The notes under the pieces are model-generated. The model was given only the letters and a program-made list of their open reading frames with translations, did not search any database and was not told the DNA's origin. Shown in pieces: positions 8,537 through 27,546 of a DNA stretch of 64,000 nucleotides. Positions within the stretch are counted from its first letter, which is position 1. Each line of letters starts with the position of its first letter. The stretch spans positions 2,852,001-2,916,000 of the forward strand of contig NZ_LT607410.1 of the NCBI RefSeq assembly GCF_900091515.1. The letters run 5' to 3'. The DNA comes from Micromonospora purpureochromogenes. Its GTDB lineage: Bacteria > Actinomycetota > Actinomycetes > Mycobacteriales > Micromonosporaceae. Position numbers and translations under genes: made by a program.

Positions 8537-8552
8537 TGGACTGAATAGTCCA
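8537..8552. promoter_or_regulatory. Operator O1 of the TGGAC-N6-GTCCA family
   Basis: TGGACTGAATAGTCCA is a perfect 16-bp palindrome, 206 bp before the AhpD-like gene. It follows GTGTTCACTCA, an element repeated before O2. It belongs to a set of near-identical palindromes at 8716, 14904, 18433, 22101 and 27531. Confidence 0.75.
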
Positions 8553-8652
8553 AAATTTCATGCGACGGCCGTGTGCGCCAGTATCCGCTCGCGCGTGGTG
8601 TGGCCCTGGTGAGTGAGCTTCCGGGCTGCCTCCGCCCCGCTGTCCACCTGTA

Positions 8653-8668
8653 TGTAATCGACGTTACA
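8653..8668. promoter_or_regulatory. Second type of palindrome in the ahpD-like promoter region
   Basis: TGTAA-TCGACG-TTACA has 5-bp arms in an AT-richer patch between O1 and O2. It could be a second regulator's site; nothing more can be said from sequence. Confidence 0.3.
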
Positions 8669-8715
8669 CAGACTGGGCTTGGAAACCCACTTTCGACGGT
8701 GTTCACTCAAGCGAG

Positions 8716-8731
8716 TGGACGAAATGGTCCA
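8716..8731. promoter_or_regulatory. Operator O2 of the TGGAC-N6-GTCCA family
   Basis: TGGACGAAATGGTCCA lies 26 bp before the ATG of the AhpD-like gene and about 12 bp before its ribosome site, the classic position for repression. It is preceded by GTTCACTCA, as is O1, so the promoter segment appears duplicated. Confidence 0.78.
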
Positions 8732-8757
8732 GTACAGTCACCCGGAGGTTCATCCCC

Positions 8758-9300
8758 ATGTCTCGCCTGACCGCTCCCGCGCGCGCCGACATCGACGCGA
8801 AGACGCAGGGCGCGCTCGACGCCATCGCGAAGCAGTTCGGCTTCGCGCCCAGCATGTTCACCACGCTCGCCGCGAACCCGACCGTGCTCAAGATCGTGAT
8901 GGGCCTGCAGGGCAGCATCGCGAAGCTCCTGGACGCGAAGACGCGCCACACGATCGCCCTCGCGGTCTCTCAGTCGAACGGCTGCCACTACTGCCAGGCA
9001 CTCCACGGTTTCATCTCGTCGAACCTCGGCGGTATGTCGGCGGAGGAGATCGAGCTCGCCCGCATGGGCACGTCCAGCGACCCGAAGCGCGCCGCCGTCG
9101 CGAAGTTCGCGCAGCACGTGATCGAGACGCGTGGCCAGGTCAGCGACGAGGACCTCGCAGCGATCCGCGAGGTCGGATATCTCGACCCGGAGATCCAGGC
9201 GATCGTCACCATCGTGGTCGTCACCCTGCTCACGAACTACCTCAACAACGTCAGCGACGCCGTCGTCGACGTCCCCGGCGCCGACCACCAGTCGGCCTGA
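8758..9300 (+). CDS. AhpD-like carboxymuconolactone decarboxylase family peroxidase
   Basis: A 180-residue all-helical protein. The motif NGCHYCQALH places Cys76, Cys79 and His83 as the CxxC/His alkylhydroperoxidase centre of AhpD-type proteins, which reduce organic peroxides or recycle a peroxiredoxin. The start is ATG with GGAGG 9 nt upstream. It is first of a plus-strand run with a nitroreductase (39-bp gap) and an MmcQ/YjbR protein, and sits behind operators O1 and O2. A role in peroxide or electrophile detoxification is inferred; the substrate is unknown. Confidence 0.9.
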   Translation: MSRLTAPARADIDAKTQGALDAIAKQFGFAPSMFTTLAANPTVLKIVMGLQGSIAKLLDAKTRHTIALAVSQSNGCHYCQALHGFISSNLGGMSAEEIELARMGTSSDPKRAAVAKFAQHVIETRGQVSDEDLAAIREVGYLDPEIQAIVTIVVVTLLTNYLNNVSDAVVDVPGADHQSA

Positions 9301-9339
9301 CTTTCCTCTCCACCCCCCGTTCAAACGAAGGAAAGCGCG

Positions 9340-9993
9340 ATGTTGAATCTCGACAAGCTGATCACGAAGCACCTCACCCGCTACTTCGACCCGAGCAAGA
9401 GGATCCCGGAGGAGACGTTCCAGCAGCTGCTGCGTTACCTGCGCACCTCGCCGACGACGATCAACATCCAGCCGAACCGTTTCCATGTGCTGGAGACGCA
9501 GGATGGTAAGGACAAGCTCGCGGACGCACTGGTCGGCCGCTTCGCGGACAACGCGGAGAAGGTGCGCAACGCGTCGCACGCCATCGTCTTCACGACGCGC
9601 AAGGACATCCCCGACACGCACCTGCAGGAGATCTTCGAGAAGGAGCGCGCCGACGGGCGCTTCGCCGACCCGGAGATCCAGAAGGGATGGGAGGCGGGCG
9701 CCTCCAACTTCGTGGAGATCCAGACAAAGAACTATGGCGGGAACGTGCTCCACTGGCTTGAGAAGAACACCTACCTTGTCGTCGGCGCCACGATGATGGC
9801 CGCCGCATCCCTCGGGGTGGACGCGACGCCGATGGAGGGCTTCGACCGGGCGACCGTGGACGCGGCCTTCGACCTGACCGACACCGACTACACGACCACG
9901 CTGCTCCTGGTGCTCGGCTACCCCGACGAGGCTCGGGTCTCCCACCAGCCGGTCTCGCGGTTCGACGCGGAGAAGATCTTTACGCACATGTGA
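9340..9993 (+). CDS. NfsB/NfnB-type oxygen-insensitive NAD(P)H nitroreductase
   Basis: A 217-residue FMN flavoprotein of the nitroreductase superfamily, expected to reduce nitroaromatics, quinones or dihydropteridines with NAD(P)H. Typical segments are RRYLRTSPTTINIQPN-like LLRYLRTSPTTINIQPNRF near residue 31, the VRNASHAIVF strand, and the C-terminal LLLVLGYPDE plus PVSRFDAEKIF. AAGGAAAG precedes the ATG. It is likely cotranscribed with the AhpD-like gene. A second copy at 16551-16830 has lost its middle. Confidence 0.92.
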   Translation: MLNLDKLITKHLTRYFDPSKRIPEETFQQLLRYLRTSPTTINIQPNRFHVLETQDGKDKLADALVGRFADNAEKVRNASHAIVFTTRKDIPDTHLQEIFEKERADGRFADPEIQKGWEAGASNFVEIQTKNYGGNVLHWLEKNTYLVVGATMMAAASLGVDATPMEGFDRATVDAAFDLTDTDYTTTLLLVLGYPDEARVSHQPVSRFDAEKIFTHM

Positions 9994-10115
9994 CGGACGG
10001 GGCGGACATCGGACCGCGATGCCGGCCCCGTTCACCGCGACTCGGTTGCCCGGCGTCCGCACCTCCTCGACGGAGGCCGGGGCAATCGATCCCTGAGGAC
10101 TTCGAGGAGGTCAAG

Positions 10116-10511
10116 ATGCAGATTGATAAGGCAGTGCAGGATCGAGCCGCGACCCGCGCCGCCGAGCTTCCCGGCTCCGAGCACACACACCAGTTCACCG
10201 GCGACTGGGAGGTATGGAAAGTCGGCGGCAAGGTGTTCATGCTGCAGACGTCCATGCCCGGCGAGCCTGTCGTGATCCTGAAAGCTGATCCAAGCGACGC
10301 GGAGGCGCTCCGCGCAGCTCACGCGAGCATCTCGCCCGGCTACCACATGAACAAGAAGCACTGGATCACAGTGCGGGCGGGTGCGGACGTCGGGCCCGCG
10401 CTGGTCGACAGTCTCGTGACCGAGTCGTACCTCCTCGTCGTTGCCGGCCTGCCGAAGCAGAGCCGTCCCGTCAATCCCGCTTCGTTCCGCGTCCCGCCCT
10501 CCGCCGACTGA
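10116..10511 (+). CDS. MmcQ/YjbR family protein (copy 1)
   Basis: A 131-residue small CyaY-like fold protein (MmcQ/YjbR). The family is often called DNA-binding but its biochemical role is unsettled. Visible landmarks are EVWKVGGKVFML, VVILKADP, GYHMNKKHWITV and the end LVVAGLPKQSRP. I chose ATG 10116, which follows GAGGAGG by 5 nt. The frame opens earlier at 9990 but that stretch lacks homology. It is the third gene after the AhpD-like and nitroreductase genes; the copy at 16125 is also next to a nitroreductase gene, so the pairing is old. Confidence 0.88.
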   Translation: MQIDKAVQDRAATRAAELPGSEHTHQFTGDWEVWKVGGKVFMLQTSMPGEPVVILKADPSDAEALRAAHASISPGYHMNKKHWITVRAGADVGPALVDSLVTESYLLVVAGLPKQSRPVNPASFRVPPSAD

Positions 10512-10558
10512 TCACGCTGACGCCGACCGCGCCCAGAGCGCCGGGCGGGCCGTACGGT

Positions 10559-10632
10559 GTGAGCGTGATCGATGGGTTCGCTGCGCGGTACGCGGAGCTG
10601 GTAACGGGTTCCTACGACTGTGTGGACCGGCA
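10559..10632 (+). pseudogene. N-terminal scrap of a mobile-element-associated protein
   Basis: GTG 10559 opens with IDGFAARYAELVTGSYDCVD, which I recall as the beginning of a longer actinobacterial protein often found beside insertion sequences. The next codons (RQDLEKQQV) no longer fit, so only about 24 residues survive. An inverted repeat GATCACGCT (10510-10518) / AGCGTGATC (10562-10570) frames its start and may be an old element end. Confidence 0.35.
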
Positions 10633-10723
10633 GGATCTGGAGAAGCAGCAGGTACGGCAACGGCGCGCTCATGGGCACGGGCATGACGGCAGCGCAGGGC
10701 TCGAACTCGCTCAGAACCGCACT

Positions 10724-10978
10724 TCAGACAGCCGAACCGAGTATTCGAGCCCCACACGCCCGCGGCAGCGGCACCCCGGCGAGGGCGGTGCGCAGCCGGC
10801 CGATGTCCAGCCGCCCGCAGGCGAGGGTGTCATACAACGCCCCTTGACCCCGACGGTGCTCACCCACCAGCGACAACTCCACCAACGACCGGACCGGCCC
10901 ATCGACGCACAACGCGGCGTCCGTCAGGTCGAACAACGCGTCCGCTGGCACGGTCAAGCAGCGGTAGAACGAGGTTAG
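10724..10978 (-). pseudogene. Transposase N-terminal remnant
   Basis: The minus frame reads FYRCLTVPADALFDLTD, VRSLVELSLVGEHRRGQGAL, then LRTALAGVPLPRACG before losing homology and stopping at 10724. This pattern is the N-terminus of a common actinomycete transposase group. Only about 85 residues remain and no catalytic residues are present. It is another sign of repeated element insertion at this end of the island. Confidence 0.6.
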
Positions 10979-11008
10979 ATCAAGTTAGAGCTGTGCGAAC
11001 GGCCCGAC

Positions 11009-11470
11009 TTATCGCAACGGGCCATCGCCGGGGCCATTGGGGTCGTCGACCAGGTGGATCGCGGCTTCTTCGGCGCTCGCGGCACCCGCGTCGATTCCGG
11101 CGTCCCACGCCACTGACTCGGCCTCCTCGTCCGCGCCCAGACCCTCGTCGTAGGCGACGAGGCGCCCCGCGCGCGTGTCCCGCTCGTACCCCCGCCGGGT
11201 CAGCTCATCCTCGTCGTCGGCCACCTCGGCGTACGGATCGAGGTCCGGCTCCTCCTGACCCAGCAGTTGATCGAGGGACTCGCCCGCCCGCTGCTCGGCG
11301 ATGGTGGTGCCGAAGCGGTTCGCGCCCGTCCAGCGATCTGCGGCGACGATGCCGGTATCGAGGGGATCACTGACGCGATCGTCGTCCAGGGTGTCCGAGG
11401 CGTCCAGGACCCCCTCGTCCTCGATCGCGTCCCACTCCTCGACGGGCTCGATGCTCTCGGTCTGGCTCAC
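11009..11470 (-). CDS. DUF5709 family protein
   Basis: A 153-residue acidic protein with no membrane segment. The centre has the family signature AGESLDQLLGQEEPDLDPY followed by GRLVAYDEG and ends EAAIHLVDDP. GTG 11470 follows AAGGAG. DUF5709 proteins are small, acidic and confined to actinobacteria; their function is unknown. It stands alone between transposase debris and the GNAT pair. Confidence 0.85.
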   Translation of the reverse strand: MSQTESIEPVEEWDAIEDEGVLDASDTLDDDRVSDPLDTGIVAADRWTGANRFGTTIAEQRAGESLDQLLGQEEPDLDPYAEVADDEDELTRRGYERDTRAGRLVAYDEGLGADEEAESVAWDAGIDAGAASAEEAAIHLVDDPNGPGDGPLR

Positions 11471-11966
11471 GGCCGTCTCTCCTTCGTAAGGCTCGAGCGA
11501 TGGCGGAAACCTAGGATGTTTCCTGCCGATCTTGAAACTGGTTGGGTTACTGAGTGTCGGCTGCCGGTGTCAGGCGGCCTCGGGGCGGATGTTCCGGTAC
11601 CGGCCGTCGCCTGTTCTGCTGGTCAAGGAGACCTCACGTGACGAGAGCGACCTCCTGCCAGGGACTGGCCGGCGGACCGGCCCATCTTCGCGGCTACGGC
11701 CCTACCCCCGCCGAAGCCGATGATGAGAACGCTCCGCACCCGCCCCCATCTGGACGTCCAGCGTCGCGGGGGGCCGGCGAGGGTGCGCGTCGCGCGCCAG
11801 AACCCATCCGGCGTGGAGCGGAACGTGGGTCGCCATCACCGGAGAAGAGCGGCCGCACCGTCGCCCGCAGGTCCAACCTCGTGGCGAGGCCGGTACACAT
11901 CCTCGTGGACGAACTCGGGGTCCGCGTCGAGGGGCATGATGCGAGCGCGGAGTCAGCGAGGGTAGC
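11471..11966. other. 496-bp stretch with no recognisable gene
   Basis: Open frames exist on both strands, but none gives a family motif, a good ribosome site or a plausible protein. It may be decayed coding DNA. I see no repeats or strong hairpins in it. Confidence 0.5.
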
Positions 11967-12440
11967 TCAGCCGAGGTCGCGTTCGAACGCGGTGAGCTGC
12001 TCGTCGTCCCGGCCTCCCACGGGTTCGTGCTTGGGGTACGCGCCGGAGCCGGGATGGATCTTGTCGATGAGGTCGGTGTACTCCCGGTTGCGGGCAATGA
12101 ACTCACCCACGACCGGGCAGATGATCGTGATCTTCTTCCCGCTCTCGCGGATCTCGTTCAGGACGCGAGAGACGAGTTCCGTGGCTACCCGATGGTGGCG
12201 GTAGGCGGGATCGACCCAGGTCGTCAGCAGAACGACACGGCCGCCCACGAACCGGTACGGGAGCTCGGCGATCGCTTCGGCGCCGAGGGTGGCGACCCAT
12301 CGCCCGTGCTCCGCGTCGTTGATGACATCGAGCTCCCAGCTGGACTCCACCTCGCTGAGACCTGACTTGTCCAAAGCGGCGATGATCGCCGCGTTGTTCT
12401 CTTCGCGGGAGACCGCCTCGGCCTCGGGATTGATCGGCAT
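11967..12440 (-). CDS. GNAT-like N-acetyltransferase, YjdJ type (copy A)
   Basis: A 157-residue protein of the small YjdJ-like (COG2388) acetyltransferase group. It shows the beta-bulge and acetyl-CoA loop region TTWVDPAYRHHRVATELV, then KKITIICPVVGEFIARN and EYTDLIDKIHP. ATG 12440 is preferred over GTG 12446 because AGGA lies 9 nt upstream. It follows a paralogue by 34 bp on the same strand. The pair probably arose by tandem duplication. The substrate is unknown. Confidence 0.82.
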   Translation of the reverse strand: MPINPEAEAVSREENNAAIIAALDKSGLSEVESSWELDVINDAEHGRWVATLGAEAIAELPYRFVGGRVVLLTTWVDPAYRHHRVATELVSRVLNEIRESGKKITIICPVVGEFIARNREYTDLIDKIHPGSGAYPKHEPVGGRDDEQLTAFERDLG

Positions 12441-12474
12441 CGTCACACTTCCTGTCGGGGAGCTGATGGGTGGT

Positions 12475-12933
12475 TCAGGACCGGGGTGAACCCTTGGTCA
12501 CTCCCGGGTGCTCAGGGTCGATGAGGTCGGCGTACTCGGGGTTGTGCTCGATGAAGGTGCGCACGATCGGGCACAGGATGGTGACCGTCTTGCCTTGCGC
12601 GCGCACGTCGTTTAGGACGCGTCGGATCAGTTCGGTGGCGACGCCCTGTTTGCGGAACTCGGGGTACACCAGGGCGGCCAGCAGCACGAGTCGGTCGTCG
12701 CCGGCGACGTTGTAGGTCAGCCCGGCGATCTCGCGGTCGCCGACGATGGCGTCGTAGATGCCGGTTTTCTCGTCGTTGACGACGGCGAAGTCGAATGCGC
12801 GGGCATGGGGATCATCGAGGACCTCGTCAATGAGGACGGCCTGGTCCTGACTGGCTGTGCCTTTCTCCTCGGGGTGTCCGGCCTCGTCGGGGTACTCGGA
12901 GGCGTAGCGGGTCGGCTCGGCTGGGCCGGTCAT
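12475..12933 (-). CDS. GNAT-like N-acetyltransferase, YjdJ type (copy B)
   Basis: A 152-residue paralogue of the next gene, with ALVYPEFRKQGVATELIRRV as the acetyl-CoA loop and KTVTILCPIVRTFIEHNPEY after it. ATG 12933 follows GAAGGGA. The frame is open further upstream to 13116, but that part is antisense to a quinone-reductase remnant. It is upstream of copy A and likely cotranscribed. Confidence 0.82.
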   Translation of the reverse strand: MTGPAEPTRYASEYPDEAGHPEEKGTASQDQAVLIDEVLDDPHARAFDFAVVNDEKTGIYDAIVGDREIAGLTYNVAGDDRLVLLAALVYPEFRKQGVATELIRRVLNDVRAQGKTVTILCPIVRTFIEHNPEYADLIDPEHPGVTKGSPRS

Positions 12934-12954
12934 GTGGGTGTCCCTTCGTTGATG

Positions 12955-13337
12955 GTCATCAGATCGGTCCCGGCTCGCGGCGACAGTCGTACTCGTCCAG
13001 CGTCTTCCCCTTGACGCGCTCGGTCGGGTTGAAAGCGGCGACGGCATCATCGAGAGCCGCCACGGTGGCGATGTTTGCCCGCAGCCGCCCGTCCCGCACC
13101 TGCTGGACGATCTCACTCAGTTGTCGACTCCCGCGCGCCGAAGTCGAGCGCCGTTTGACGGTCGGCAGCGCGTCCGGTGCCGATGACGTATGCGCCGGCC
13201 TGACGGGCGAGCTGTGCCGCCATCGAGCCGACTGCGCGGGCTCTGCCCTTCACGAAGGCGGCCGTGCTCGCACGGACCTTGCCATGCCGTCAAGCCCGTC
13301 ATCGCGACGCCCGCGCCCAACGCGAAGTCGACGTGAA
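12955..13337 (-). pseudogene. Zinc-free quinone oxidoreductase with internal deletions
   Basis: Reading the minus strand gives pieces of a protein closely similar to the intact gene at 22789: VDFALGAGVAMTGLTAWQG, then SMAAQLARQAGAYVIGTGRA and DRQTALDFGA, then a jump over about 80 residues to LSEIVQQVRDGRLRANIATV and FNPTERVKGKT. The start, nucleotide-loop GAAGAVG and central domain are missing. It overlaps the last codons of the MFS gene. It is one of several internally deleted relics in the island. Confidence 0.82.
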
Positions 13338-14510
13338 CAGGGTGGCGATGAGGGCAAGTGCACCGTAGCCGAGCGCGATCTGCGGCAGCGAGAGGGCGTG
13401 GGAAAGTTGGCCGGCGAGAAGGGCCGGAATCGTAGCGCTGCTGTAGCAGAGCAGGTAGATCACGCTGAAGATCGATGCCCGGTCGGCCGGTGTGCTTCCG
13501 TGCAGCAGACCGCGAGTGGCGGCGCTGATGGCGATCCCTTGAGCGGCGCCGGCGACGATCGTTGCGGCGATGAACAACGCCAGTGTGCCGGTGGCGATCG
13601 CCGTGATGATGCCGATCATTCCGGCTAGGAAGGCGATCATGCCGAGACGTTGGGCTGCCGTTGTGGTGAACCGGCCGCCGAGGGGAGCGCCGAGAACGCT
13701 GGGACCCATGTAGGCGGCGAACACCAGTCCGACGACGAGCGGGCTGCTGGTGTGGAGCTGATCCTCGACCAGCGCAGGCACGAACGCTTGGTAGAAGGCC
13801 CCGGCCGCCCAGGTGGCCAGGAACACCGCCGCCGCGACGGGGAGCAGATGCCTGACCCGGGCTGGCACGTGGACCCGGGGTCGCAGCGATCGCCAAGCAC
13901 CCGGCATCCGGGTGACGGTCTCCGGGCTGACGGCAATGAGACCGACAGACAGGAGGAGAAGGCCGATGACAACCAGAAAGACGAGGTCGCGTGGCCACGG
14001 CCCGAACTGAACCAGGGCGCCGGAGGCGATGGCGCCGACGGCGAGGCCAAGCATGACTGTCTGGCTGGAGGCGACAGAGGCCAACCACGCCGGCCTGGCG
14101 GGTGCGGCGTCGACGATGTACGCAGTGAGGCTGCTACTGGCCAGCCCGGCGCCAAGGCCCATCAGGAGCCGGCCGGTGATCAGGACGCCGATGTCGTGCA
14201 CGTTCAACAGCAGCACACAGCCCAAGAGGAGCAGGACGAGGCTGGCGATCGAGGTGGGCCGCCGGCCCAGATGATTGGACAGTCGCCCCAGCACCAGCAG
14301 CGTGGTCAGAGTGGCGGTGGAGTACGCGACGACGGTCATCGAGATGCCGGCGTTGGTGAACCCGTCCTCGGCCCGATAGATGTTGAACAGCGGGATCGTC
14401 GAGCCCACAGCGGCAAACGCGGCCACCAGGGAGACCACCGCAGATATGAAGGTCAGCCGGAGCGTTCCGCCCCGGCCGGCCACGCTGGTCACTGGTACCG
14501 TGTTGAGCAT
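13299..14510 (-). CDS. MFS exporter, 12-helix drug/metabolite type
   Basis: A 403-residue integral membrane protein with about 12 hydrophobic helices. The motif-A region between helices 2 and 3 is LGRLSNHLGRRP, and GRLLMGLGAGLASS lies in helix 4. It is probably a proton-driven exporter. The last ten residues (STSRWARASR) lie over a quinone-reductase remnant read in another frame, so the natural C-terminus has probably been replaced. ATG 14510 has no clear ribosome site. Confidence 0.85.
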   Translation of the reverse strand: MLNTVPVTSVAGRGGTLRLTFISAVVSLVAAFAAVGSTIPLFNIYRAEDGFTNAGISMTVVAYSTATLTTLLVLGRLSNHLGRRPTSIASLVLLLLGCVLLLNVHDIGVLITGRLLMGLGAGLASSSLTAYIVDAAPARPAWLASVASSQTVMLGLAVGAIASGALVQFGPWPRDLVFLVVIGLLLLSVGLIAVSPETVTRMPGAWRSLRPRVHVPARVRHLLPVAAAVFLATWAAGAFYQAFVPALVEDQLHTSSPLVVGLVFAAYMGPSVLGAPLGGRFTTTAAQRLGMIAFLAGMIGIITAIATGTLALFIAATIVAGAAQGIAISAATRGLLHGSTPADRASIFSVIYLLCYSSATIPALLAGQLSHALSLPQIALGYGALALIATLFTSTSRWARASR

Positions 14511-14625: not shown

Positions 14626-14766
14626 TCAATGTCGCGATTGCGCTCCGTTGTGCGGTTCATCGGCGACGAACGTGAAGCCGCGGGTGGTCATGTCCGTGCG
14701 CCGGCGCTCAGTGGCCGGGAGGACAGCTCGGGCGGATGCGACGACACGATCCCGATCAGTTCCCAT
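14626..14766 (-). pseudogene. Truncated duplicate of the OsmC gene
   Basis: 46 codons from ATG 14766 repeat the start of the OsmC gene at 18297 almost exactly (DRDRVVASARAVLPATERRR, then FTFVADEPH) and then run into an unrelated tail and TGA. No active-site cysteine remains. It is part of the segment duplicated between 14652-15020 and 18184-18690. Confidence 0.82.
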
Positions 14767-15020
14767 CAGCCGCGACTTCTGTGTGAATCCTGGTAGTAAC
14801 GGTCCAGCTACGCGGCTCCGCCAGCAGCCGGGCCGCGGTCTGAGTGGGGCCTGCGGCCGGGCGTGTCACCCCGTGACCGAGTACCTCTCCAGGCTAGCCT
14901 CCCTGGACTTTATAGTCCAATCTACTGCTTCTGGTCAGAACCGCTCGGCCCTCGTGCATCATCAACGTCGTCGCCTCCCGCGACTCGGGCGGCCTCAAAT
15001 CCAGACAACATGAAACATCG
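14652..15020. repeat. Segmental duplication, left copy
   Basis: It matches 18184-18690: the OsmC start, the spacer with CCGAGTACCTC and CAGGCTAGCC, an operator, and GTCGTCGCCTCCCGCGAC followed by ACATCGATGCTG-like sequence. The right copy has about 90 extra bases that include a second operator. The rest of the gap up to 15169 holds no recognisable gene. Confidence 0.75.
14904..14919. promoter_or_regulatory. Operator O3 of the TGGAC-N6-GTCCA family
   Basis: TGGACTTTATAGTCCA is a perfect palindrome inside the left duplication copy, 138 bp upstream of the truncated OsmC start. Its target gene is dead. It might still titrate repressor or act on the MFS gene 394 bp away. Confidence 0.7.
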
Positions 15021-17868: not shown

Positions 17869-18297
17869 TCAGCGCGTTCCGACGAACTCGGTCCTCACGC
17901 TCCATGCGAACTGAATCAGCAGGGTCACCGGGGACTTCTCGGCAATCTCATGCATCACCTTCAAGTCGTCGGGGTCAGGGTCTTCGCTCAGCGTGATCGT
18001 GCGCTGCAGGTAACGCTCTGCGCCTTCCTGCTCGGGCTCGTGGTAGTCGATCTCGACGGTGATGTCACCGGCGGTGTCGTACTTGTAGTCGACGTACTGC
18101 CTGAGCGTCTGAGCAGTGCACGACGCGAGCGCCATCAACAGGTACTCCGTCGGCGTCGGGCCTTCGCCGAGTGTGCCGTGGTGTGGTTCATCGGCGACGA
18201 ACGTGAAGCCGCCGGTGGTCATGCCCGTGCGCCGGCGCTCAGTGGCCGGAAGGACAGCTCGGGCGGATGCGACGACACGATCCCGATCGGTTTCCAT
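17869..18297 (-). CDS. OsmC family peroxidase-like protein
   Basis: A 142-residue OsmC-fold protein; the family reduces organic hydroperoxides through a reactive cysteine. Cys60 stands in LMALASCTAQTLRQYV, the first conserved cysteine. The position of the second is serine (AEKSPVTLL), as in the YhfA-like subgroup, so an Ohr-style disulfide mechanism is not expected. ATG 18297 is the start. Two operators of the TGGAC-N6-GTCCA type lie 136 and 279 bp upstream. Part of its 5' end is duplicated at 14626. Confidence 0.9.
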   Translation of the reverse strand: METDRDRVVASARAVLPATERRRTGMTTGGFTFVADEPHHGTLGEGPTPTEYLLMALASCTAQTLRQYVDYKYDTAGDITVEIDYHEPEQEGAERYLQRTITLSEDPDPDDLKVMHEIAEKSPVTLLIQFAWSVRTEFVGTR

Positions 18298-18432: not shown

Positions 18433-18448
18433 TGGACCAGATAGTCCA
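18433..18448. promoter_or_regulatory. Operator O4 of the TGGAC-N6-GTCCA family
   Basis: TGGACCAGATAGTCCA lies 136 bp upstream of the OsmC start. Its flank (CAGGCTAGCC) matches that of O3. Confidence 0.74.
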
Positions 18449-18575: not shown

Positions 18576-18591
18576 TGGACTTATTGGTCCT
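18576..18591. promoter_or_regulatory. Operator O5 (one mismatch) before the Ada-like remnant
   Basis: TGGACTTATTGGTCCT differs from the consensus only in its last base. It faces the Ada-like frame that begins about 110 bp downstream on the plus strand, so OsmC and Ada were probably divergently controlled from O4 and O5. Confidence 0.55.
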
Positions 18592-20065: not shown

Positions 20066-20722
20066 TTAACGGGTCGGCTCGCCGGACGGCTCCGTGAGGA
20101 ACGATTTGATGTGCTCCAGCGCCATGTCCAGCGCAACTTCCATGGGCGCGACGTTGTGCGCGGCGTTCGCCAGCAAGTAGCCGCCTTGCAAAGCTGCCAT
20201 CAACCCCGTGGCCAACTTCTCCGGGTCGGCGTCCTGGCGTAGTGCACCGCTGTCCCGCATCCGGTGCAGACCCTCACTGATCAGCTTTTCCCATGCCGCG
20301 AACGTTTCCAACAGCATCGATCGAGCCTGCTCATCCTGATCGGACAGCTCGACAGCCATCGACCCGAGGCCGCACCCGTATCTGCCGTTGTTCAGCGAGT
20401 TGGCCTGGACCAGCGCGTTACGCCACCGGACCAGCCCGGAGAACGATCTCAGCCGTTCGAGCCCGCCGCGCTCACGCTGAAGCACCAGCGCGCCTCGATA
20501 CTTGACCAACGCGCGCACGAGCTCCTGCTTGTCGGCGAAGTGGTGGTAAAGCTGAGACTTGCTCGTCTGGCTTGCCTCGCGGACGTCGTCAAGGGTTGTC
20601 GCGTTCACTCCCCGCACGAACATCAGCCGGTTTGCCGCCTCGAGGATCCGCTCTCGCGTCGCGATGCCCCGTTGACTGATCCTCCGCTGCCTCGACGGCG
20701 CAGCCACCTGCTCGTCGCCCAT
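20066..20722 (-). CDS. TetR-family repressor (LmrA/YxaF-like), copy 1
   Basis: A 218-residue regulator. The helix-turn-helix spans about residues 33-52 (TTLDDVREASQTSKSQLYHH, then FADKQ). The ligand-binding half has GRYGCGLGSMAVELSDQD and ALQGGYLLANAA, typical of the LmrA/YxaF group. Its recognition helix SKSQLYHHFADK is almost identical to that of the TetR at 27558, so both should read the same operator. A GGAC-N6-GTCC site at 20892-20905 lies 170 bp upstream. It is the best candidate repressor of the scattered stress genes. Confidence 0.92.
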   Translation of the reverse strand: MGDEQVAAPSRQRRISQRGIATRERILEAANRLMFVRGVNATTLDDVREASQTSKSQLYHHFADKQELVRALVKYRGALVLQRERGGLERLRSFSGLVRWRNALVQANSLNNGRYGCGLGSMAVELSDQDEQARSMLLETFAAWEKLISEGLHRMRDSGALRQDADPEKLATGLMAALQGGYLLANAAHNVAPMEVALDMALEHIKSFLTEPSGEPTR

Positions 20723-20891
20723 CGGTCAAGTGTATCCAGCGGCGCGCCAGATTACCCACGGGCGATGGGGCCTTGGAGTCCAGTCGGCGTTATGTCGCAT
20801 TCGCGTGATGGCGAAGGGCGAACGCATGCGCCGCCAGCTTGATTGAGCGGGGTGCTGCGTCCGGGAGATCATCGATAGGGCGAGTCTCCCG

Positions 20892-20905
20892 GGACTATCT
20901 GGTCC
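20892..20905. promoter_or_regulatory. Weak operator-like site near tetR copy 1
   Basis: GGACTATCTGGTCC keeps the core GGAC-N6-GTCC but lacks the outer T and A. It lies 170 bp upstream of the TetR start. Core matches alone are expected two or three times per window by chance. Confidence 0.35.
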
Positions 20906-20928
20906 TCGCTGTGGCAGCAACACGTCCG

Positions 20929-21135: not shown

Positions 21136-21140
21136 AGGTG

Positions 21141-21647
21141 TCAGGCGGTCGCCCGCTTCGGGAGCTTCCACCCGGGGCGGGGGAAATGGCAGGTGTAACC
21201 GTCGGGGTAGGTCCTCAGGTAGTTCTGGTGCTCGGGCTCAGCTTCCCAGAAGTCGCCTGCGGAGGTGACCTCGGTGACGACCTTGCCGGGCCACAGGCCC
21301 GAGGCGTCGACGTCGGCGATCGTGTCCTCGGCGACCCGCTTCTGCTCGTCGCTGGTGTAGAAGATCGCCGAGCGGTAGCTGGTGCCGATGTCGTTGCCCT
21401 GGCGGTTTTTCGTTGAGGGGTCGTGGATCTGGAAGAAGAACTCGAGCAGCGCGCGGAAGTCGGTCTTCCCGGTGTCGTAGACGACCTCGATGGACTCCGC
21501 GTGGGTGCCGTGGTTGCGGTAGGTGGCGTTCGGGACGTCGCCGCCGCTGTAGCCGACGCGCGTGGACACGACGCCGGGCTGTTGGCGGAACAGCTCCTCC
21601 ATGCCCCAGAAGCAGCCGCCGGCGAGGATCGCCTTTTCGGTGGTCAC
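21141..21647 (-). CDS. msrA: Peptide-methionine (S)-S-oxide reductase
   Basis: A 168-residue MsrA, which repairs methionine-S-sulfoxide in proteins using thioredoxin. The active site GCFWG gives Cys12. Other marks are [20 protein letters not shown], the HDPS segment and the C-terminal [18 protein letters not shown] with a possible resolving Cys. Length is normal for the short form. It lies 9 bp downstream of a broken msrB on the same strand, and an operator lies about 454 bp upstream (118 bp before the msrB start), so the pair was one operon. Confidence 0.95.
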
Positions 21648-21656
21648 AACGCCTCC

Positions 21657-21983
21657 TTACTTGTCGTTGGTGTCACTCGTGAACATGGTGCGGTATTCGC
21701 CATACCCTGCGTTCTCCAGGGCGTCGAGGTGGCTGAACCGCACCGACGCGGAGTTGCTGCAGTAGCGCAGTCCACCCTTGTCGGGGGGCCGTCGTTGAAG
21801 ACGTGGCCGAGGTGGCTGTCCCCGTGCAGCGAGAGGGCCTCAGTCCGGGCTCGTCCCGTGGCCGGAGTCGTCGCGTTGGCGAACGGGCGCTCGGTGGCGT
21901 CCTGCTGGGTCACGCGGTACTGCTCCGGGTCGAGCCGCGAAACGGCTTCCTGGTTCTTTGTGGTACTGGGTCTGCTGAGGCAC
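21657..21983 (-). pseudogene. MsrB methionine-R-sulfoxide reductase with deletion and frameshift
   Basis: From GTG 21983 (after GGGAAGGGAGAG) the strand reads pieces of MsrB: LDPEQYRVTQQDATERPFAN, then a jump over about 60 residues to [17 protein letters not shown], then a shift to [20 protein letters not shown]. The lost part includes the first zinc CxxC and the GWPSF segment. The catalytic Cys of RYCSNSAS survives but lies out of frame. It sits just upstream of msrA. Confidence 0.85.
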
Positions 21984-22100
21984 CGCTCTCCCTTCCCGGC
22001 CTTTCGGCGCGCGAAGCTGGGTAACGAGGTGAAACGCACCTGGATGCCCGAATGTACAGATACCCTACGGCCGGTGGTATTCCCGCGGCCCCACCGTATC

Positions 22101-22116
22101 TGGACTAACGAGTCCA
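22101..22116. promoter_or_regulatory. Operator O6 of the TGGAC-N6-GTCCA family
   Basis: TGGACTAACGAGTCCA is a perfect palindrome 118 bp upstream of the msrB start codon, in the promoter region of the msrB-msrA operon. Confidence 0.76.
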
Positions 22117-22210
22117 GTAAGATTCCCGCAAGCAGCTGGTTGGGTGCCCTCGTTACGGCAGGCGGCCTGGGATAAACCGCCGCCACGGTAGCACCCGCTT
22201 GAACCAAGAG

Positions 22211-22226
22211 TGGACTTGACGGACCA
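22211..22226. promoter_or_regulatory. Degenerate operator-like site before the SDR remnant
   Basis: TGGACTTGACGGACCA has one mismatch in the right arm (GACCA for GTCCA). It lies between the msrB promoter and the plus-strand SDR remnant. Confidence 0.35.
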
Positions 22227-22392
22227 GTTCTACTGCGGCTAGGTTCAGGATGCCTGACTGGGTGCCTCCGATAGCGACGACTGTCCGACTTACCCACCGG
22301 CGCCGAGTTCTGCGGACGTCGCGCCACTGCCCGGGAACCGGGTGCCGGTGCTGCGAACATGAATCGCGATTCGGTGGGGAGAGACAACTGTC

Positions 22393-22572
22393 ATGACTGA
22401 GAGTTGCGAGGGCCGAAAGGTCGCGGTCGTTGGCGGCAGCAGCGGCATGGGCCTCGCCACGGCCCACCAGGTCGTCGCCGCGGGAGGCACCGTCGTGATC
22501 ACGGGCCGAGACCAGCTGGATGACCGGCGCACTCTCGACGTCGACGGCGGCATCATGCCCGGCCGCAACTGA
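22393..22572 (+). pseudogene. Short-chain dehydrogenase reduced to a 59-codon minigene
   Basis: ATG 22393 opens a normal SDR start with the NAD(P)-binding glycine loop VAVVGGSSGMGLATAHQVVA and VVITGRDQ. It then jumps in frame to the extreme C-terminus, LDVDGGIMPGRN and stop. About 180 central residues with the YxxxK active site are missing. The in-frame fusion could still be translated but not catalyse. The last codons and downstream bases are repeated at 23919-23985. Confidence 0.82.
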
Positions 22573-22788
22573 CCCTCGAAACGTGACGCCAGGATCGCGC
22601 CAGCGGGGGCCGCGACCCCGGCGGCGCCTTACCGACGACTTCGCTCTCGCGCTCGTTCCTCGACGCCCTCGCGCCACAACCGCTACCGATCAACGTGGTA
22701 GAGACCGAGGCGGCGCCGCTAATGCTGGTGAAACGACATTTGCACCTCGTGACCGTACAAACGAGGACTGGATACAGGGAGGCGCCGG

Positions 22789-23706
22789 ATGAAGGCGATT
22801 GTGGTGACGGACCAGGCTGCGGGAACGGCCGGGATGACGCTGGTGGAGCGGCCCGAGCCGGTACCGGCGCTGAACGACGTCGTCGTTCAGGTTCATGCGT
22901 CGGGATTCGTCCCGACTGAGATGTCGTGGCCCTCGACCTGGACCGATCGCCTCGGCCGAGACCGGACGCCGTCGATCCCTGGGCACGAGCTGGCCGGGGT
23001 GGTTAGCGCTCTCGGGTACGGCACGACGGGCCTGTCTGTGGGACAGCGGGTGTTCGGCCTCACGGACTGGACCCGCGACGGCACCCTGGCCGAGTATGTG
23101 GCCGTCGAGGCGCGCAACCTCGCGCAGCTGCCCGGCGACGTCGACTTCACGGTGGGCGCGAGCCTGCCGATCTCGGGACTGACCGCGTGGCAGGGACTGT
23201 TCGAGCACGGCCGCCTTCAGGCGGGGCAGTGCGTCCTCGTACACGGCGCGGCCGGCGCAGTCGGTTCGATGGTGACGCAGCTCGCACGCGAGGCCGGCGC
23301 CTACGTCATCGGCACCGGGCGCACTGCCGACCGTGAGGCGGCGCTCGGCTTCGGCGCGCAGGAGTTCGTCGACCTGGAGAACGACGCCCTGGAAGACGTC
23401 GGCGGGGTCGATCTCGTGTTCGATGTCATCGGCGGCGACATCGGTAAGCGGTCGGCAGGCCTGATTCGCGCCGGCGGAACGCTGGTGTCCGTCGTCGGGC
23501 CGCCGGAGGCGCGGCCCGCCGACGGCCTGGCGGTCGACTTCGTCGTCCTGCCCGATCGCGCTCAACTCGGTGAGCTCGTCCGGCGGGTGCGGGACGGACG
23601 ACTCCAGACAAACATCGGCAACGTCGCGACCCTCGACGACGCCGTCGCGGCTCTCAATCCGACCAAGCGGATCACCGGGAAGACGATCATCCGCGTTCGT
23701 CCCTGA
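22789..23706 (+). CDS. NADP-dependent zinc-free quinone oxidoreductase (MDR family)
   Basis: A 305-residue reductase without catalytic zinc. It shows PGHELAGVVSALGYG, GQRVFGLTDWTRDGTLAEYV, the ISGLTAWQGLFEHGRLQAGQ hinge and the nucleotide loop VLVHGAAGAVGSMVTQLA, ending ALNPTKRITGKTIIRVRP. ATG follows GGGAGGCGCCGG. Likely substrates are quinones or other electrophiles. A deleted copy lies at 12955-13337 and a more distant intact relative at 15170. Confidence 0.92.
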   Translation: MKAIVVTDQAAGTAGMTLVERPEPVPALNDVVVQVHASGFVPTEMSWPSTWTDRLGRDRTPSIPGHELAGVVSALGYGTTGLSVGQRVFGLTDWTRDGTLAEYVAVEARNLAQLPGDVDFTVGASLPISGLTAWQGLFEHGRLQAGQCVLVHGAAGAVGSMVTQLAREAGAYVIGTGRTADREAALGFGAQEFVDLENDALEDVGGVDLVFDVIGGDIGKRSAGLIRAGGTLVSVVGPPEARPADGLAVDFVVLPDRAQLGELVRRVRDGRLQTNIGNVATLDDAVAALNPTKRITGKTIIRVRP

Positions 23707-23835
23707 GGGCTCGGGGACAGCGAGCGGTCCCGCTCTCCTTGTGGATCAGCGTCAACCGCGTGGCAGGTTCGGACGACTCGTATTGAAGACGTCATCGGAC
23801 TGAGCGGGCACCCGGCGTAACCAGCGCCCGGCCGC

Positions 23836-23934
23836 CCGAAGGACATCACGAACGCGGTGTCGTTCCTGCTGCCGGACAAGTCGAGCTGGATGACCGGCGC
23901 CATCGCCGACGTCGACATCATGGCCGGCCGCAAC
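23836..23934 (+). pseudogene. C-terminal scrap of a second short-chain dehydrogenase
   Basis: One frame reads PKDITNAVSFLLPDKSSWMT then GAIADVDIMAGRN, the closing helix and G-rich tail of SDR enzymes. The sequence after it resembles that after the 22393 minigene, so both descend from one duplicated gene. Confidence 0.65.
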
Positions 23935-23968
23935 AGATCCTCGAAACGTAACGCCGGGATCACGCCGG

Positions 23969-24004
23969 CGGGCTGCGGACGTGCCCCTACGCGTCCGCAG
24001 CCCG
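23969..24004 (+). terminator. Hairpin after the quinone oxidoreductase / SDR scrap
   Basis: CGGGCTGCGGACG pairs perfectly with CGTCCGCAGCCCG around a 10-nt loop. Confidence 0.75.
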
Positions 24005-24130
24005 GGCCCGCGGGGGAGACCACCAGCGGATTCGGCGAGAGCGTGGCCCCGCCGGCGCGCACGTGGTCGCGCCCGCTGGTGAGATCCGTGACTCGACCTG
24101 TGCTCACCTAGTTCGTGAAGGCCTACCCCG

Positions 24131-24290
24131 GCCCCTACTTCCAGTGGTAGATCGGCGAGGAAGACGGCCTGCCAGCCGAGGGCCTCGGCCAGGACACCGC
24201 CGACCGACGGTCCCAGTGCCCTGCCTACGGCCGACATGGTGCCGAGCAGCCCCATGGCGCTGCCCGTGCGCGCCTCGGGCACCAACGATG
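24131..24290 (-). pseudogene. Fragment of a DHA2-type MFS exporter
   Basis: The minus strand reads EARTGSAMGLLGTMSAVGRA, LGPSVGGVLAEALGWQAVF and LADLPLEVG, the motif-C region (helix 5) of multidrug MFS proteins. No start or further helices are present. Confidence 0.65.
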
Positions 24291-24595
24291 GTGGGTGCTC
24301 GCCCTTCTCGCGCGTGCCGGCGTAGCCCTGGGCGGCGTGGCGGTACGGCTGGCCGCCCGCTGCGACGTCGGCAGTGCCCTGCTGCGCAGCGGGGCGGGGA
24401 CCTTCCGGGCGATCTGGCAGCCGCGCCGGCCGATCGGCGTCGCGGCCCGGGTCCATCTTCCGGCGATCACGGGCTGGCTGGCAGGCGGAGTCCTGCTCAC
24501 CACGATGATGGGCTCGCTGGCACGTCCTCCGGCGAGCATCAACCACGGCCGCCCTTCTTCGGGGCGTCCATCGCGGACCCACGGGGAGGCAGGGG
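24291..24595. other. Stretch without a recognisable gene
   Basis: Both strands have open frames, including a hydrophobic plus-strand one (GWLAGGVLLTTMMGSLA), but none shows a family signature or ribosome site. It is probably decayed coding DNA. Confidence 0.4.
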
Positions 24596-25171
24596 TCAGT
24601 GCTGCGGTGGCAGCAGCTCCAGCAGCAGCGAGGTCAGATCGTCGGCGCTGAGGTCCGGCAGCCGGTCGAATGCGCCAGAGGCCCGGGCGGTGAGCACGCC
24701 GATGAACGCAGCGGTGAGTACCTCCGCCTTCTCCTGCGGCCGGTCCACCCCGTCGGCAGCCAGCCTGGCAGTCAGCGGGCCGACGATCCGCCTGTGCAGC
24801 TCCGCCCGCGACGCGGCCTGCGCCCGCGGATCGTCGTGTGGCCGGATCGCGACCCGGTAGATCGGGCTGGGTCCACGGCGGACGGCACGGTCGACGAGGT
24901 GCCGCATGCGGGCCGGGTCGAGGATGTCCACGGGGACGTCGTCACCCATCTCCTCGCGCAGCACGGCGATGTACAACTGCGCCTTGCCGCCGAAGTAGCG
25001 GGCGATCATGGCGGCGTCCACTCCGGCCCGCTCCCCGATGTCCCTGGTGGTGGCGTGGTCGTAGCCCCGCTCGGCGAACAGCTCGGCTCCGGCTTTCAGT
25101 AGCGCGGCCCGGGTACCGTCCGCGTCCCGGCGCCGCCGCGGGGAGGCCGCGCCGCCGCGCGAGTCACTCAT
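24596..25171 (-). CDS. TetR-family regulator of the adjacent MFS exporter
   Basis: A 191-residue TetR protein. The HTH is TTRDIGERAGVDAAMIARYF; the recognition helix differs from those of the two other TetR proteins here, so its operator should differ too. It overlaps the end of the MFS gene by 8 bp and is its partner in one operon. A tandem palindrome upstream of the MFS gene (26677-26703) is the likely operator. Confidence 0.9.
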   Translation of the reverse strand: MSDSRGGAASPRRRRDADGTRAALLKAGAELFAERGYDHATTRDIGERAGVDAAMIARYFGGKAQLYIAVLREEMGDDVPVDILDPARMRHLVDRAVRRGPSPIYRVAIRPHDDPRAQAASRAELHRRIVGPLTARLAADGVDRPQEKAEVLTAAFIGVLTARASGAFDRLPDLSADDLTSLLLELLPPQH

Positions 25172-26624
25172 GCCGACTCCTCGCCGCTCGGTTTGTGAGA
25201 CACCGGCGCGCTCGGCCCGCTGGCTGGTGCCAGGCCGGGAGCAGTGCGCCGGCGGCCAGACTCATCAGCCACAGGGCCACCCCGAGGAAGGCCGCGGCGG
25301 TGTACCCGGAGGCGGACGGGTACGGCTGCCAGCTCGGGGTGTGCACGGCCAGCATCTCGGCGCTCAGCGCGCTGCCGGTGGAGTAGCCGACGTAGCGCAG
25401 CACCTGGTTGAAGCTCATCGCGCTGCCGGTCGCCTGAGCCGGCACGGCTCGAGTGATCATGCCGGGCATGACCGCGAACACCGTACCGACCGCCAGCCCG
25501 ACCACGGCCATCACGACCACCAGTTCCCCGATGGTGTGCCGGAGGAGCCCAAACAGCACCATGCCCGCGAGCGCGAGCGCGGACGCGGCCGGGATCAGCA
25601 GCCGCTCGCCACCGCGGGAGACCACTACCGGCGTGATCCGGCTAGCCGCGAAGCTGCCGGCGGAGAACGGCAGCAGCACGAGACCCGCGACGACGACTGA
25701 GCCGCCGAGCCCGTCGGCCGTACCGACAGGGGTCTGCACGAACTGCACCACGAGGGAGATCAGCAGGTACATGCCGAGCCCGGCGAGCACCGCGGCGACG
25801 TCCGCCGCCAGTACCCCGCGGTGGCGTAACAGCCGCAGGTCCACCAGCGGCCGCTGGTGGCGCAGTTCGTACCCGGCCCAGGTTGCCGTCGTCACCACCG
25901 CGACGACGATAGCCACCACCGAGCGCGGCGAGAACCAACCCCAGGCATCGCCCTCGCTGATGAACAGGATCAGGGCCGCCAGTCCGGCGCCGAGGAGAAC
26001 CGCACCGGGTACGTCGAGCCGGACCCTGGGCAGGTGACGCGATGACGGCACGATCCACCCCGCGGTGAGCAGCGCGACCAGACTGACCACCGCCCCGAAC
26101 CAGTACGCCAGATGCAGCCCGCCGTACTCGGCGATCAGTCCGGTGACCGGGTACCCGAGGCCGACGCCGGCCACCGTGGTGATGGAGAGCATGGCCATGG
26201 TGGGTCGTGCGCGCTGCGGCGGCAGCGAGTCGCGGGCCGTCGCGATCGCCAGCGGTGTGAGGCCCAGACCGGCGCCCTGCAAACCCCGGCCGACGAGCAG
26301 GGCGGCAAACCCAGTCGGCAGCGCGGCCAGCGCGCAACCCGCCGTGACGAGTACGAGCCCTGCGAGCATCACCGTGCGCCGTGCGGGACCGTCGCCGAGC
26401 CGGCCCATGATCGGCGTCGCGATCGCCCCGACCAGTAGCGTGATCGTCAGAGACCACTGGGCGTCGGTCACCGATACGCCGTCGGCCGCGGCGATCTTCG
26501 GGATGAGCGGCGCGCCGAGGCTGCTCACCACCGCGACCACGGTGCCCAGGAAGATCAGTGTGGGGACCAGACCGCGTGTCGAGCGCCGTTGATACGTGGG
26601 CGGCTTCTCCTGTACCACCGTCAT
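25164..26624 (-). CDS. DHA2-type MFS multidrug exporter (about 14 helices)
   Basis: A 486-residue transporter from ATG 26624, which follows GAGGAG at 10 nt; the 23 earlier codons in frame lack a better site. Motif A is MGRLGDGPARRTVML, and VGRGLQGAGLGLTPLAIA lies in helix 4. Helix count and length fit the 14-helix proton-driven drug exporters. It is translationally coupled to a TetR gene that probably represses it in the absence of substrate. Confidence 0.92.
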   Translation of the reverse strand: MTVVQEKPPTYQRRSTRGLVPTLIFLGTVVAVVSSLGAPLIPKIAAADGVSVTDAQWSLTITLLVGAIATPIMGRLGDGPARRTVMLAGLVLVTAGCALAALPTGFAALLVGRGLQGAGLGLTPLAIATARDSLPPQRARPTMAMLSITTVAGVGLGYPVTGLIAEYGGLHLAYWFGAVVSLVALLTAGWIVPSSRHLPRVRLDVPGAVLLGAGLAALILFISEGDAWGWFSPRSVVAIVVAVVTTATWAGYELRHQRPLVDLRLLRHRGVLAADVAAVLAGLGMYLLISLVVQFVQTPVGTADGLGGSVVVAGLVLLPFSAGSFAASRITPVVVSRGGERLLIPAASALALAGMVLFGLLRHTIGELVVVMAVVGLAVGTVFAVMPGMITRAVPAQATGSAMSFNQVLRYVGYSTGSALSAEMLAVHTPSWQPYPSASGYTAAAFLGVALWLMSLAAGALLPAWHQPAGRARRCLTNRAARSRHE

Positions 26625-26676
26625 GCTGGCCCTGCTCCTCACCGCCGGGTACGGCGACCCGCGTCCGGCGCGCATG

Positions 26677-26703
26677 TCATCAACTGATGTCATCGCTTGA
26701 TGA
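26677..26703. promoter_or_regulatory. Tandem palindrome, probable operator for the MFS-TetR operon
   Basis: TCATCA-AC-TGATG is followed directly by TCATC-GCTT-GATGA, two overlapping inverted repeats of the same half-site, 53 to 79 bp upstream of the MFS start. The remaining gap to 26998 holds one further inverted repeat (CGATTGCG / CGCAATCG, 26816-26853) and no gene. Confidence 0.6.
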
Positions 26704-26998
26704 CTACGGTAGACGCCGGGCGGGCGACCAGCGGCAGCCGGTGGTCAAGGTCACTCCCATGGCCGCCGGGTCGGTGCCGCCGCCGGCCCGTCTCAACCAA
26801 TCTGACGGCAAGTCCCGATTGCGGCTGACGGCTGAGGTCAGACGCAATCGGTGGGGAGGCGGGCGCTGAAGGCGAGCAGGGCGACCCCGCTGCTTCCACG
26901 GGTGGCGGTTCCGGCGGCTGGTGTCCACCGCGTACCCGGCCATTGATGGGGCGTCTGTGCGAGCACCCCAGCATGGCCGGCGCGGCCGGGCCATGAGG

Positions 26999-27475
26999 TC
27001 AGGCGCGGGAGCGCAGGAAGCGCACCAGCCCGGCTACATCCTCCGGTACGAGGCGGCCGATGGCCCCGCTGGAGTAGACGGCGTTGAGTACGGAGCCGTC
27101 CGGGCCGAGGACGAAGCCGGTCGACTGCAGGTGACGGCGGTCGTCGTTGAGGTACGCGCCGGTCAGGGCGGCGACCTGCTCGGCGTCCGCGCTGTGGCCG
27201 ACGGGGAACGCGAGGTGGTGCTTGTCGACCAGCGCCCTGGTGGTGGGTTCATCGTCGACGGAGAGCGCGGCGACCCGGACGTCGAGTGCAGTGAGAGTGT
27301 CGGTGGCGCGCTGGAACGCCGCGAGCTGAGCGGTGCAGTAGGGGCACCAGGAGCCCCGGTAGATCAGTACGACGCCGTAATGCCCGGCGAACTCATCGGG
27401 TAGCCGGAGGGTGCCCCCGCCGGTACGGGGCACCTCGAGGGTCGGAAAGGTCTGGCCGTTGTCGAGTCGAGCCAT
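26999..27475 (-). CDS. Peroxiredoxin / AhpC-TSA-like redoxin
   Basis: A 158-residue thioredoxin-fold protein with RGSWCPYCTAQLAAFQRATD, giving Cys44 as peroxidatic or redox cysteine and Cys47 as its CxxC partner. DVRVAALSVDDEPTTRALVD follows. This resembles the redoxin group that includes peroxiredoxin-like thiol peroxidases. ATG 27475 follows AAGGAG; an 11-codon upstream extension is less likely. It diverges from a TetR gene across operator O7, so both should be controlled together. Confidence 0.88.
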   Translation of the reverse strand: MARLDNGQTFPTLEVPRTGGGTLRLPDEFAGHYGVVLIYRGSWCPYCTAQLAAFQRATDTLTALDVRVAALSVDDEPTTRALVDKHHLAFPVGHSADAEQVAALTGAYLNDDRRHLQSTGFVLGPDGSVLNAVYSSGAIGRLVPEDVAGLVRFLRSRA

Positions 27476-27530
27476 GTTGCGTCTCCTTGTCAGCCGGTTC
27501 ACGATCACATTGAGTCAACGCCACGAAAAC

Positions 27531-27546
27531 TGGACCGACAAGTCCA
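27531..27546. promoter_or_regulatory. Operator O7 of the TGGAC-N6-GTCCA family
   Basis: TGGACCGACAAGTCCA lies in the 82-bp gap between the peroxiredoxin gene (minus) and the TetR gene (plus), 11 bp before the latter's GTG. This is the clearest regulator-target arrangement in the set. Confidence 0.82.

Follow-up and report, generated by a model that had tools for sequence, protein, structure and literature searches.

The palindrome TGGAC-N6-GTCCA, present in six perfect copies in a 64,000-nucleotide stretch of Micromonospora purpureochromogenes (the window; NZ_LT607410.1 positions 2852001–2916000, with window coordinates used here unless stated), is best read as the operator of a subfamily of TetR repressors resembling NemR, AcuR, and AltR. 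Two such proteins, TetR A and TetR B, are encoded among the sites. We hold it very probable, taken as a whole, that both read this operator and repress a set of stress genes, that Cys114 governs their release, and that the set forms a module of a genomic island. Sequence comparisons support the operator, its regulator, the target set, and the pairing of operators; repression, the cysteine switch, and the type of inducer are suggested by analogy with NemR, AltR, and AcuR. In outline, TetR A and TetR B would, as dimers, repress their own promoters together with those of a peroxiredoxin, the ahpD-nitroreductase-yjbR operon, osmC, msrBA, and the divergent quinone oxidoreductase. Site pairs 110–179 bases apart (179, 143, 124, and 110 bases in the window) would govern four of the five, and the promoter of tetR B as well, its pair being the fourth; the peroxiredoxin/tetR A region would have a single site. 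Modification of Cys114 by a thiol-reactive or oxidising compound would then release the repressor and turn the gene set on.

The motif is rare in the genome, a single contig of 6,674,134 bases, and clustered here. Perfect sites number 25, of which 6 lie in this stretch and 19 elsewhere (~0.18 per 64 kb, in keeping with the expectation, voiced in a sequence-only reading of this DNA, of well under one per window); 0.054 would be expected in 19 kb (Poisson P(≥6) = 3.4e-11). The sites at 14904 and 18433 lie inside an 83%-identical duplication and those at 8537 and 8716 have flanking bases in common; counted as four independent groups the sites give P = 3.5e-7, so that this non-independence weakens the excess but does not remove it. 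An open reading frame with GC3 ≥ 0.8 covers 16 of the 19 outside sites and one of the six inside (8716, in an 82-residue antisense frame). The six palindromes named in the sequence-only reading all proved perfect, and its three weaker sites were recovered at 18576, 22211 (one mismatch each), and 20891 (two mismatches; it had given 20892, off by one); it had missed a second two-mismatch site at 20767, and a further one-mismatch match at 6661 adjoins a tRNA gene.

An extended consensus, AnTGGACYnnnnRGTCCAnT, was drawn from 43 sites: 34 upstream of homologous regulators (one of them the copy of 27531 in Micromonospora sp. MA102, or L028, the nearest named relative), 4 elsewhere in L028, and 5 in the window. 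With at most one mismatch it matches the genome seven times, always within 8535–27548 and with 22211 among the matches, a result that is partly circular in that 5 window sites and the L028 site with the letters of 27531 are among the 43. A control pattern, the consensus reversed, likewise has 7 genome matches, their positions not listed. In this genome the best-matching sites are restricted to the stretch of the tRNA-Leu island described below. Random occurrence of the motif throughout the genome had been named beforehand as the finding that would speak against a regulon, and the scans did not show it (6 of 25 perfect and 7 of 7 extended sites lie here). One genome site, at 3065396, is identical to an L028 operator over 16 letters; it lies inside a coding frame, and the identity was taken as chance.

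Comparison within the genus ties the sites to particular genes. A search of 151 genomes found TetR matches in 56 at E ≤ 1e-25, and type B occurs at 90–98% identity in 24 of 150 relatives (those whose loci were compared). Twenty type-B stretches of 19.9 kb hold overlapping gene sets in variable order, and the operators stay beside the genes. We counted the genes that have a site with one mismatch or none in the 500 bases before them, the window and L028 included. All 20 osmC copies have one (the live and the dead copy of the window are two of them; shuffles would give 0.30), and so do all 4 ahpD genes and 6 of 7 copies of a sulfite-oxidase-like gene (molybdopterin oxidoreductase). The count is 14 of 29 for the quinone oxidoreductase with its paralogues, 13 of 21 for tetR B (20 if two mismatches are allowed), and 1 of 2 for the peroxiredoxin; comparison genes have 1 of 32 in total (MFS 1/7, acetyltransferase 0/8, DUF5709 0/2, QOR1 0/2, FNR 0/9, nitroreductase 0/4). 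That genes for peroxide, thiol, and quinone metabolism and methionine repair are the targets, as had been proposed from the window, agrees with sites kept beside them across the genus. At six sites, in alignments not anchored on the motif, identity is 0.87–0.99 in half-sites, 0.53–0.90 in spacers, and 0.59–0.80 in flanks; two further weak matches, at −39 of osmC and −560 of msrA, do not stand out in conservation. Extended sites average 3.98 in the 47 relatives with an A- or B-type TetR and 1.16 in the 103 without (Mann-Whitney P 1.4e-15, with the own genome omitted and relatedness ignored), compared with 7.3 and 6.7 for a control pattern in the same relatives (P 0.10). L028 carries a rearranged version whose main blocks are 92–97% identical and whose second nitroreductase is intact. 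Positions 4992–6514 of the L028 stretch hold a molybdopterin oxidoreductase and an FAD/NAD oxidoreductase with two operators at the start. Stretches of several relatives contain this unit too; in the window's island it was not found. Two other operator-like sites recur across genomes: TGGACTTCTGAGTCCA, found across the genus (e.g. G000:C1:1129981, locus L005, where it overlaps the ends of two open frames), and AATGGACCnGCAAGTCCA (e.g. G020:C21:18024, G066:C5:333552), which in two genomes lies ~1.3 kb from other TetR matches.

The association of palindrome and regulator extends well beyond the genus. TetR A and TetR B are 44% identical and, since their recognition-helix motif is the same (S-K52-S-Q), should read the same sites. 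Both match the TetR and LmrA/YxaF-type C-terminal domains (Pfam PF21993/PF16925, above gathering score) and fall below the cut-offs of NCBIfam AcuR (NF051457, 247 bits; 68.6 for TetR A and 49.4 for TetR B) and the ScbR-type butyrolactone receptor (NF041196, 150 bits; 64.1 and 61.5), TetR A scoring highest with the AcuR model but far short of its cut-off. Of 8,000 candidates scored, 2,822 are homologues at E ≤ 1e-20. Named genomes were found to hold 72 loci, of which we used the 53 with a match over most of the protein (near-copies such as L068 and L076 included) and omitted 19 short matches (L080–L088, L090–L099). A perfect TGGxx-N6-xxCCA stands upstream of the regulator at 39 of the 53, against 0.42 expected in shuffles; these loci belong to Actinomycetota and Pseudomonadota, and the sole Verrucomicrobia locus (L048) has an imperfect site. 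Together with the confinement of extended sites, this upholds the earlier suggestion of a common operator linked to the two TetR proteins. A divergent peroxiredoxin related to that at 26999–27508 accompanies 22 of the 53 regulators (20 of the 30 in which residue 52 is Lys or Arg, and 2 of the 23 others), and the type-A loci of the genus show operator and divergent peroxiredoxin in all nine fetched (a tenth was listed and not fetched).

Which of the two proteins acts where admits another answer. TetR B alone might run the regulon, with TetR A limited to its own peroxiredoxin pair and little cross-talk despite the common operator, and we regard this as a serious if somewhat doubtful possibility: the type-B stretches carry the osmC, msrBA, ahpD, and sulfite-oxidase sites, and the genus type-A loci, in stretches of ~3.6 kb, show peroxiredoxin intergenic sites only. 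However, the S-K-S-Q motif is found in both proteins, and in L028 it is TetR A whose gene lies close to the ahpD and sulfite-oxidase operators, while the 20.6 kb fetched there contain no TetR B.

The nature of the signal can be considered in light of known systems. NemR of Escherichia coli responds to electrophiles and bleach through Cys106, and its operator is of a TAGAC type, unlike the TGGAC type here. LmrA/YxaF of Bacillus subtilis is flavonoid-responsive. Cys114 of TetR A aligns with the NemR sensing cysteine, and the cysteine recurs in TetR B and in 53 of 53 homologues. NemR (PDB 4yze) is among the closest solved folds to TetR A, at rank 3 of the listing, but it is only ~26% identical and its targets are nemA-gloA; LmrA/YxaF (PDB 1sgm) has the matching C-terminal domain (PF21993) but an isoleucine at the place of Cys114. 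AltR, from the alt (allicin tolerance) cluster of Pantoea ananatis, is a NemR-like repressor of a local thiosulfinate-tolerance cluster for which Cys100 is needed. AltR resembles the system proposed here in repressing its own gene along with a local stress cluster, in having an N6 palindrome, CAATCTAC-N6-GTAGATTG, at several places of one cluster, and in its single key cysteine, whereas its operator letters, host, and gene set are different and its inducer is a thiosulfinate (PMC13178969). AcuR of Rhodobacter sphaeroides, likewise a TetR-type repressor of its own operon, has the operator TAATAGAC-N6-GTCTATTA, in which the inner GAC-N6-GTC and the spacing are those found here; the difference lies in TAGAC-N6-GTCTA against TGGAC-N6-GTCCA and in its control of one acrylate/dimethylsulfoniopropionate operon (PMC3017554). 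CssR and DitR were considered as possible relatives and set aside, their operators being different in the passages available, and a system with a TetR/peroxiredoxin context is described, in the part available, with another operator (PMC8176726).

Given the presence of Cys114 in all 53 homologues, the NemR fold, and the AltR and AcuR parallels, we consider sensing of thiol stress or electrophiles the most likely mode and binding of a ligand its chief alternative. Under that alternative the TetRs read the sites but respond to a bound small molecule (a quinone, a flavonoid, or an acrylate-like compound), as AcuR and LmrA/YxaF do, and Cys114 is structural. We think this unlikely: while the ranking of the AcuR model, the shared C-terminal domain, and the response of the AcuR operon to acrylate (PMC3017554) all fit a ligand, the cysteine is invariant among the 53 homologues and aligned with that of NemR, and the target families deal with peroxides, oxidised methionine, and electrophiles. 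As Cys114 aligns with the NemR cysteine, a thiol- or electrophile-derepressed regulon is the best reading. That the repeats are a functionless by-product of duplicated or transposed island segments is very improbable, because even though 14904 and 18433 share a duplicated osmC segment, 8537 and 8716 have flanking bases in common, and the contents of the island include a transposase, a dead copy of osmC, and a nitroreductase copy with an internal deletion, half-sites are better conserved than spacers and flanks at six sites and the palindrome stands at homologous regulator loci of other genera and of Pseudomonadota.

Variation at residue 52 offers a further view of the operator. In the predicted structure of TetR A (mean pLDDT 88.9) it is the first residue of helix 52–58, which from the model is expected to be the DNA-reading helix. 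Among the 39 palindrome loci, Lys52 goes with TGGAC (23/23), Ser52 with TGGAT (10/10), Gly52 with TGGGT (3/3), and Ala or Thr52 with TGGAG (3/3). A second set of 36 further loci, possibly overlapping in part with the 53, contains 14 Lys loci with perfect palindromes, all TGGAC (L118 has an unrelated TGGCG one in addition); its Gly52 loci show TGGGC (L018), none perfect (L162, L171, L175), or an unrelated palindrome (L172), and at L160, a locus with Ser52, the palindrome is imperfect. This genome encodes a third member of the family, at genome position 4914812; it has Gly52, adjoins a quinone-oxidoreductase-like gene, and has TGGGC palindromes. In L140 and L151, ahpD is preceded at 84 bases by a TGGGC palindrome, and a divergent relative (65%) of the L028 regulator TetC is found there; in L028, TetC has Gly at the residue-52 place (S-G-S-Q). 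The window has TGGGCTTGGAAACCCA equally far from ahpD (8674), an occurrence that on its own does not exceed chance (0.52 expected). We give an even chance to a broader proposal, in which the first recognition-helix residue of a cysteine-bearing TetR family, spread over several phyla and often beside a divergent peroxiredoxin, would set the inner operator bases (Lys C, Ser T, Ala/Thr G, Gly GT or GC); Micromonospora stress genes would shuffle with their operator pairs, remaining under the repressor wherever they landed; and paralogues differing at residue 52 (Lys, Gly) would read different sites in one promoter, such as that of ahpD.

Several results, besides the partial circularity and the neglect of relatedness mentioned above, weigh against the regulon and its operator code as we read them. 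No perfect palindrome was found at 14 of the 53 homologue loci, 7 of them with Lys or Arg52, nor, in the 36-locus set, at nine Lys loci (L161, L164, L165, L169, L185–L188, L205) or at seven Ala52 loci of the genus (L119–L125). Three changes suffice to place the operator classes on the homologue tree, so the link between residue and base stands on few independent events. The sites of tetR B itself have two mismatches each here, and a site precedes msrA in only 6 of 17 cases (msrB lies in between). Finally, TTGACA is present in many type-A spacers, which suggests a −35 element and so a placement of the promoter, but a −10 element follows 3 of 11 TTGACA-bearing sites compared with 11% of shuffles, which is not clearly above control.

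The kind of repressor is thus already known from NemR, AcuR, and AltR, while its operator here is apparently unreported: a limited literature search found no published report of the operator strings or of this regulon. An operator, regulator, and target list for a large TetR group would allow regulons to be read from genomes. Changes of specificity among TetR repressors could be studied on the natural variants at residue 52, and the shuffled genes, tagged with operators, make it tractable to follow how a regulon and its control elements spread together from one genome to another.

The stress genes and their operators are a shuffling, partly decayed module in a tRNA-borne island: a variable stretch that starts at tRNA-Leu(gag), with an integrase remnant and, at its far edge, a repeat of the tRNA end. 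The two copies of this 19-base repeat agree at 18 of 19 bases, a match that 0 of 150 random 19-mers reached within this span; an exact repeat of at least 14 bases wholly within the tRNA gene was not found. Directly after the right copy, and before a conserved carboxylase gene, lies a second serine recombinase stretch (33762–34446), 79% identical to the left one. The left flank through the tRNA is kept in five of five relatives, two of which lose similarity at the tRNA and three after the recombinase; their stretches (12–20 kb) hold no perfect operator, and one has a relative of the quinone oxidoreductase. Six carboxylase-side stretches resemble the window only from ~34,790–34,840 on. The outer flanks (an 876-residue gene on the left, the carboxylase on the right) lie on one contig in 6 of 8 relatives and are far apart in all six, and as these genes are not neighbours there we do not claim an empty site. 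The earlier idea of an island that travelled is well supported in part, by the tRNA start, the repeat, the recombinase stretches at both ends, and the variable gene order, but falls short of a clean empty site. The features are collected in Table 1.

Table 1. Predicted operators, genes, and island landmarks in the window
Feature	Position	Strand	Basis
tRNA-Leu(gag), left edge of variable stretch	6672..6756	+	conserved left flank
Left copy of 19-base repeat over tRNA 3' end, candidate attachment site	6745..6763	+	repeat search
Serine recombinase remnant, two overlapping frames	6813..8295	-	PF07508, PF13408 for 6816-7889; no Pfam match for 7699-8295
Predicted operator, distal, ahpD operon	8537..8552		perfect palindrome, extended-consensus match, relatives
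TGGGC-N6-ACCCA palindrome, candidate operator of Gly52-type TetR	8674..8689		at -84 from ahpD as in L140, L151
Predicted operator, proximal, ahpD operon	8716..8731		perfect palindrome, extended-consensus match, relatives
AhpD/carboxymuconolactone decarboxylase-like peroxidase	8758..9300	+	Pfam/NCBIfam
NfsB-like nitroreductase	9340..9993	+	Pfam/NCBIfam
MmcQ/YjbR protein	10113..10511	+	Pfam/NCBIfam
Fragment of second osmC copy (residues 1-41)	14644..14766	-	comparison with relatives
Predicted operator remaining before dead osmC copy	14904..14919		perfect palindrome, extended-consensus match, relatives
OsmC	17869..18297	-	Pfam
Predicted operator, proximal, osmC	18433..18448		perfect palindrome, extended-consensus match, relatives, alignment
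Predicted operator, distal, osmC	18576..18591		one mismatch, relatives, alignment
TetR B (S-K-S-Q helix)	20066..20722	-	Pfam, helix motif, relatives
Weak predicted operator, proximal, tetR B	20767..20782		two mismatches, relatives, alignment
Weak predicted operator, distal, tetR B	20891..20906		two mismatches, relatives, alignment
MsrA	21141..21647	-	Pfam/NCBIfam
Open frame with msrB sequence, SelR matched in part only	21644..22387	-	Pfam
Predicted operator, msrBA/quinone oxidoreductase side	22101..22116		perfect palindrome, alignment, extended-consensus match
Predicted operator holding TTGAC toward quinone oxidoreductase	22211..22226		one mismatch, relatives, alignment, extended-consensus match
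Zinc-type quinone oxidoreductase/alcohol dehydrogenase, divergent from msrBA	22789..23706	+	Pfam, relatives
AhpC/TSA peroxiredoxin, divergent from tetR A	26999..27508	-	Pfam, relatives
Predicted operator between peroxiredoxin and tetR A	27531..27546		perfect palindrome, extended-consensus match
TetR A (S-K-S-Q helix, Cys114)	27558..28199	+	Pfam, helix motif, alignment, model
Right copy of 19-base repeat, one mismatch, adjoins second recombinase stretch	33743..33761	+	repeat search

An Ada remnant, listed among the targets in the sequence-only reading, was dropped from the regulon: the 71-residue open piece upstream of tetR B has no Pfam match (we take its frame to resemble the start of a sigma factor), and the sites at 20767 and 20891 look like those of tetR B itself. 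In L139, alignment with the window extends 195 bases upstream from tetR B and the remainder up to msrA is different DNA, so both sites were assigned to tetR B as its own. At 24596–26693 the island also contains a pair of a different kind, a TetR (TetR_C_16) with an MFS transporter, and no site with one mismatch or fewer lies nearby. A DDE transposase (PF13359) occupies 18706–19869, also inside the island, with osmC on one side and tetR B on the other.

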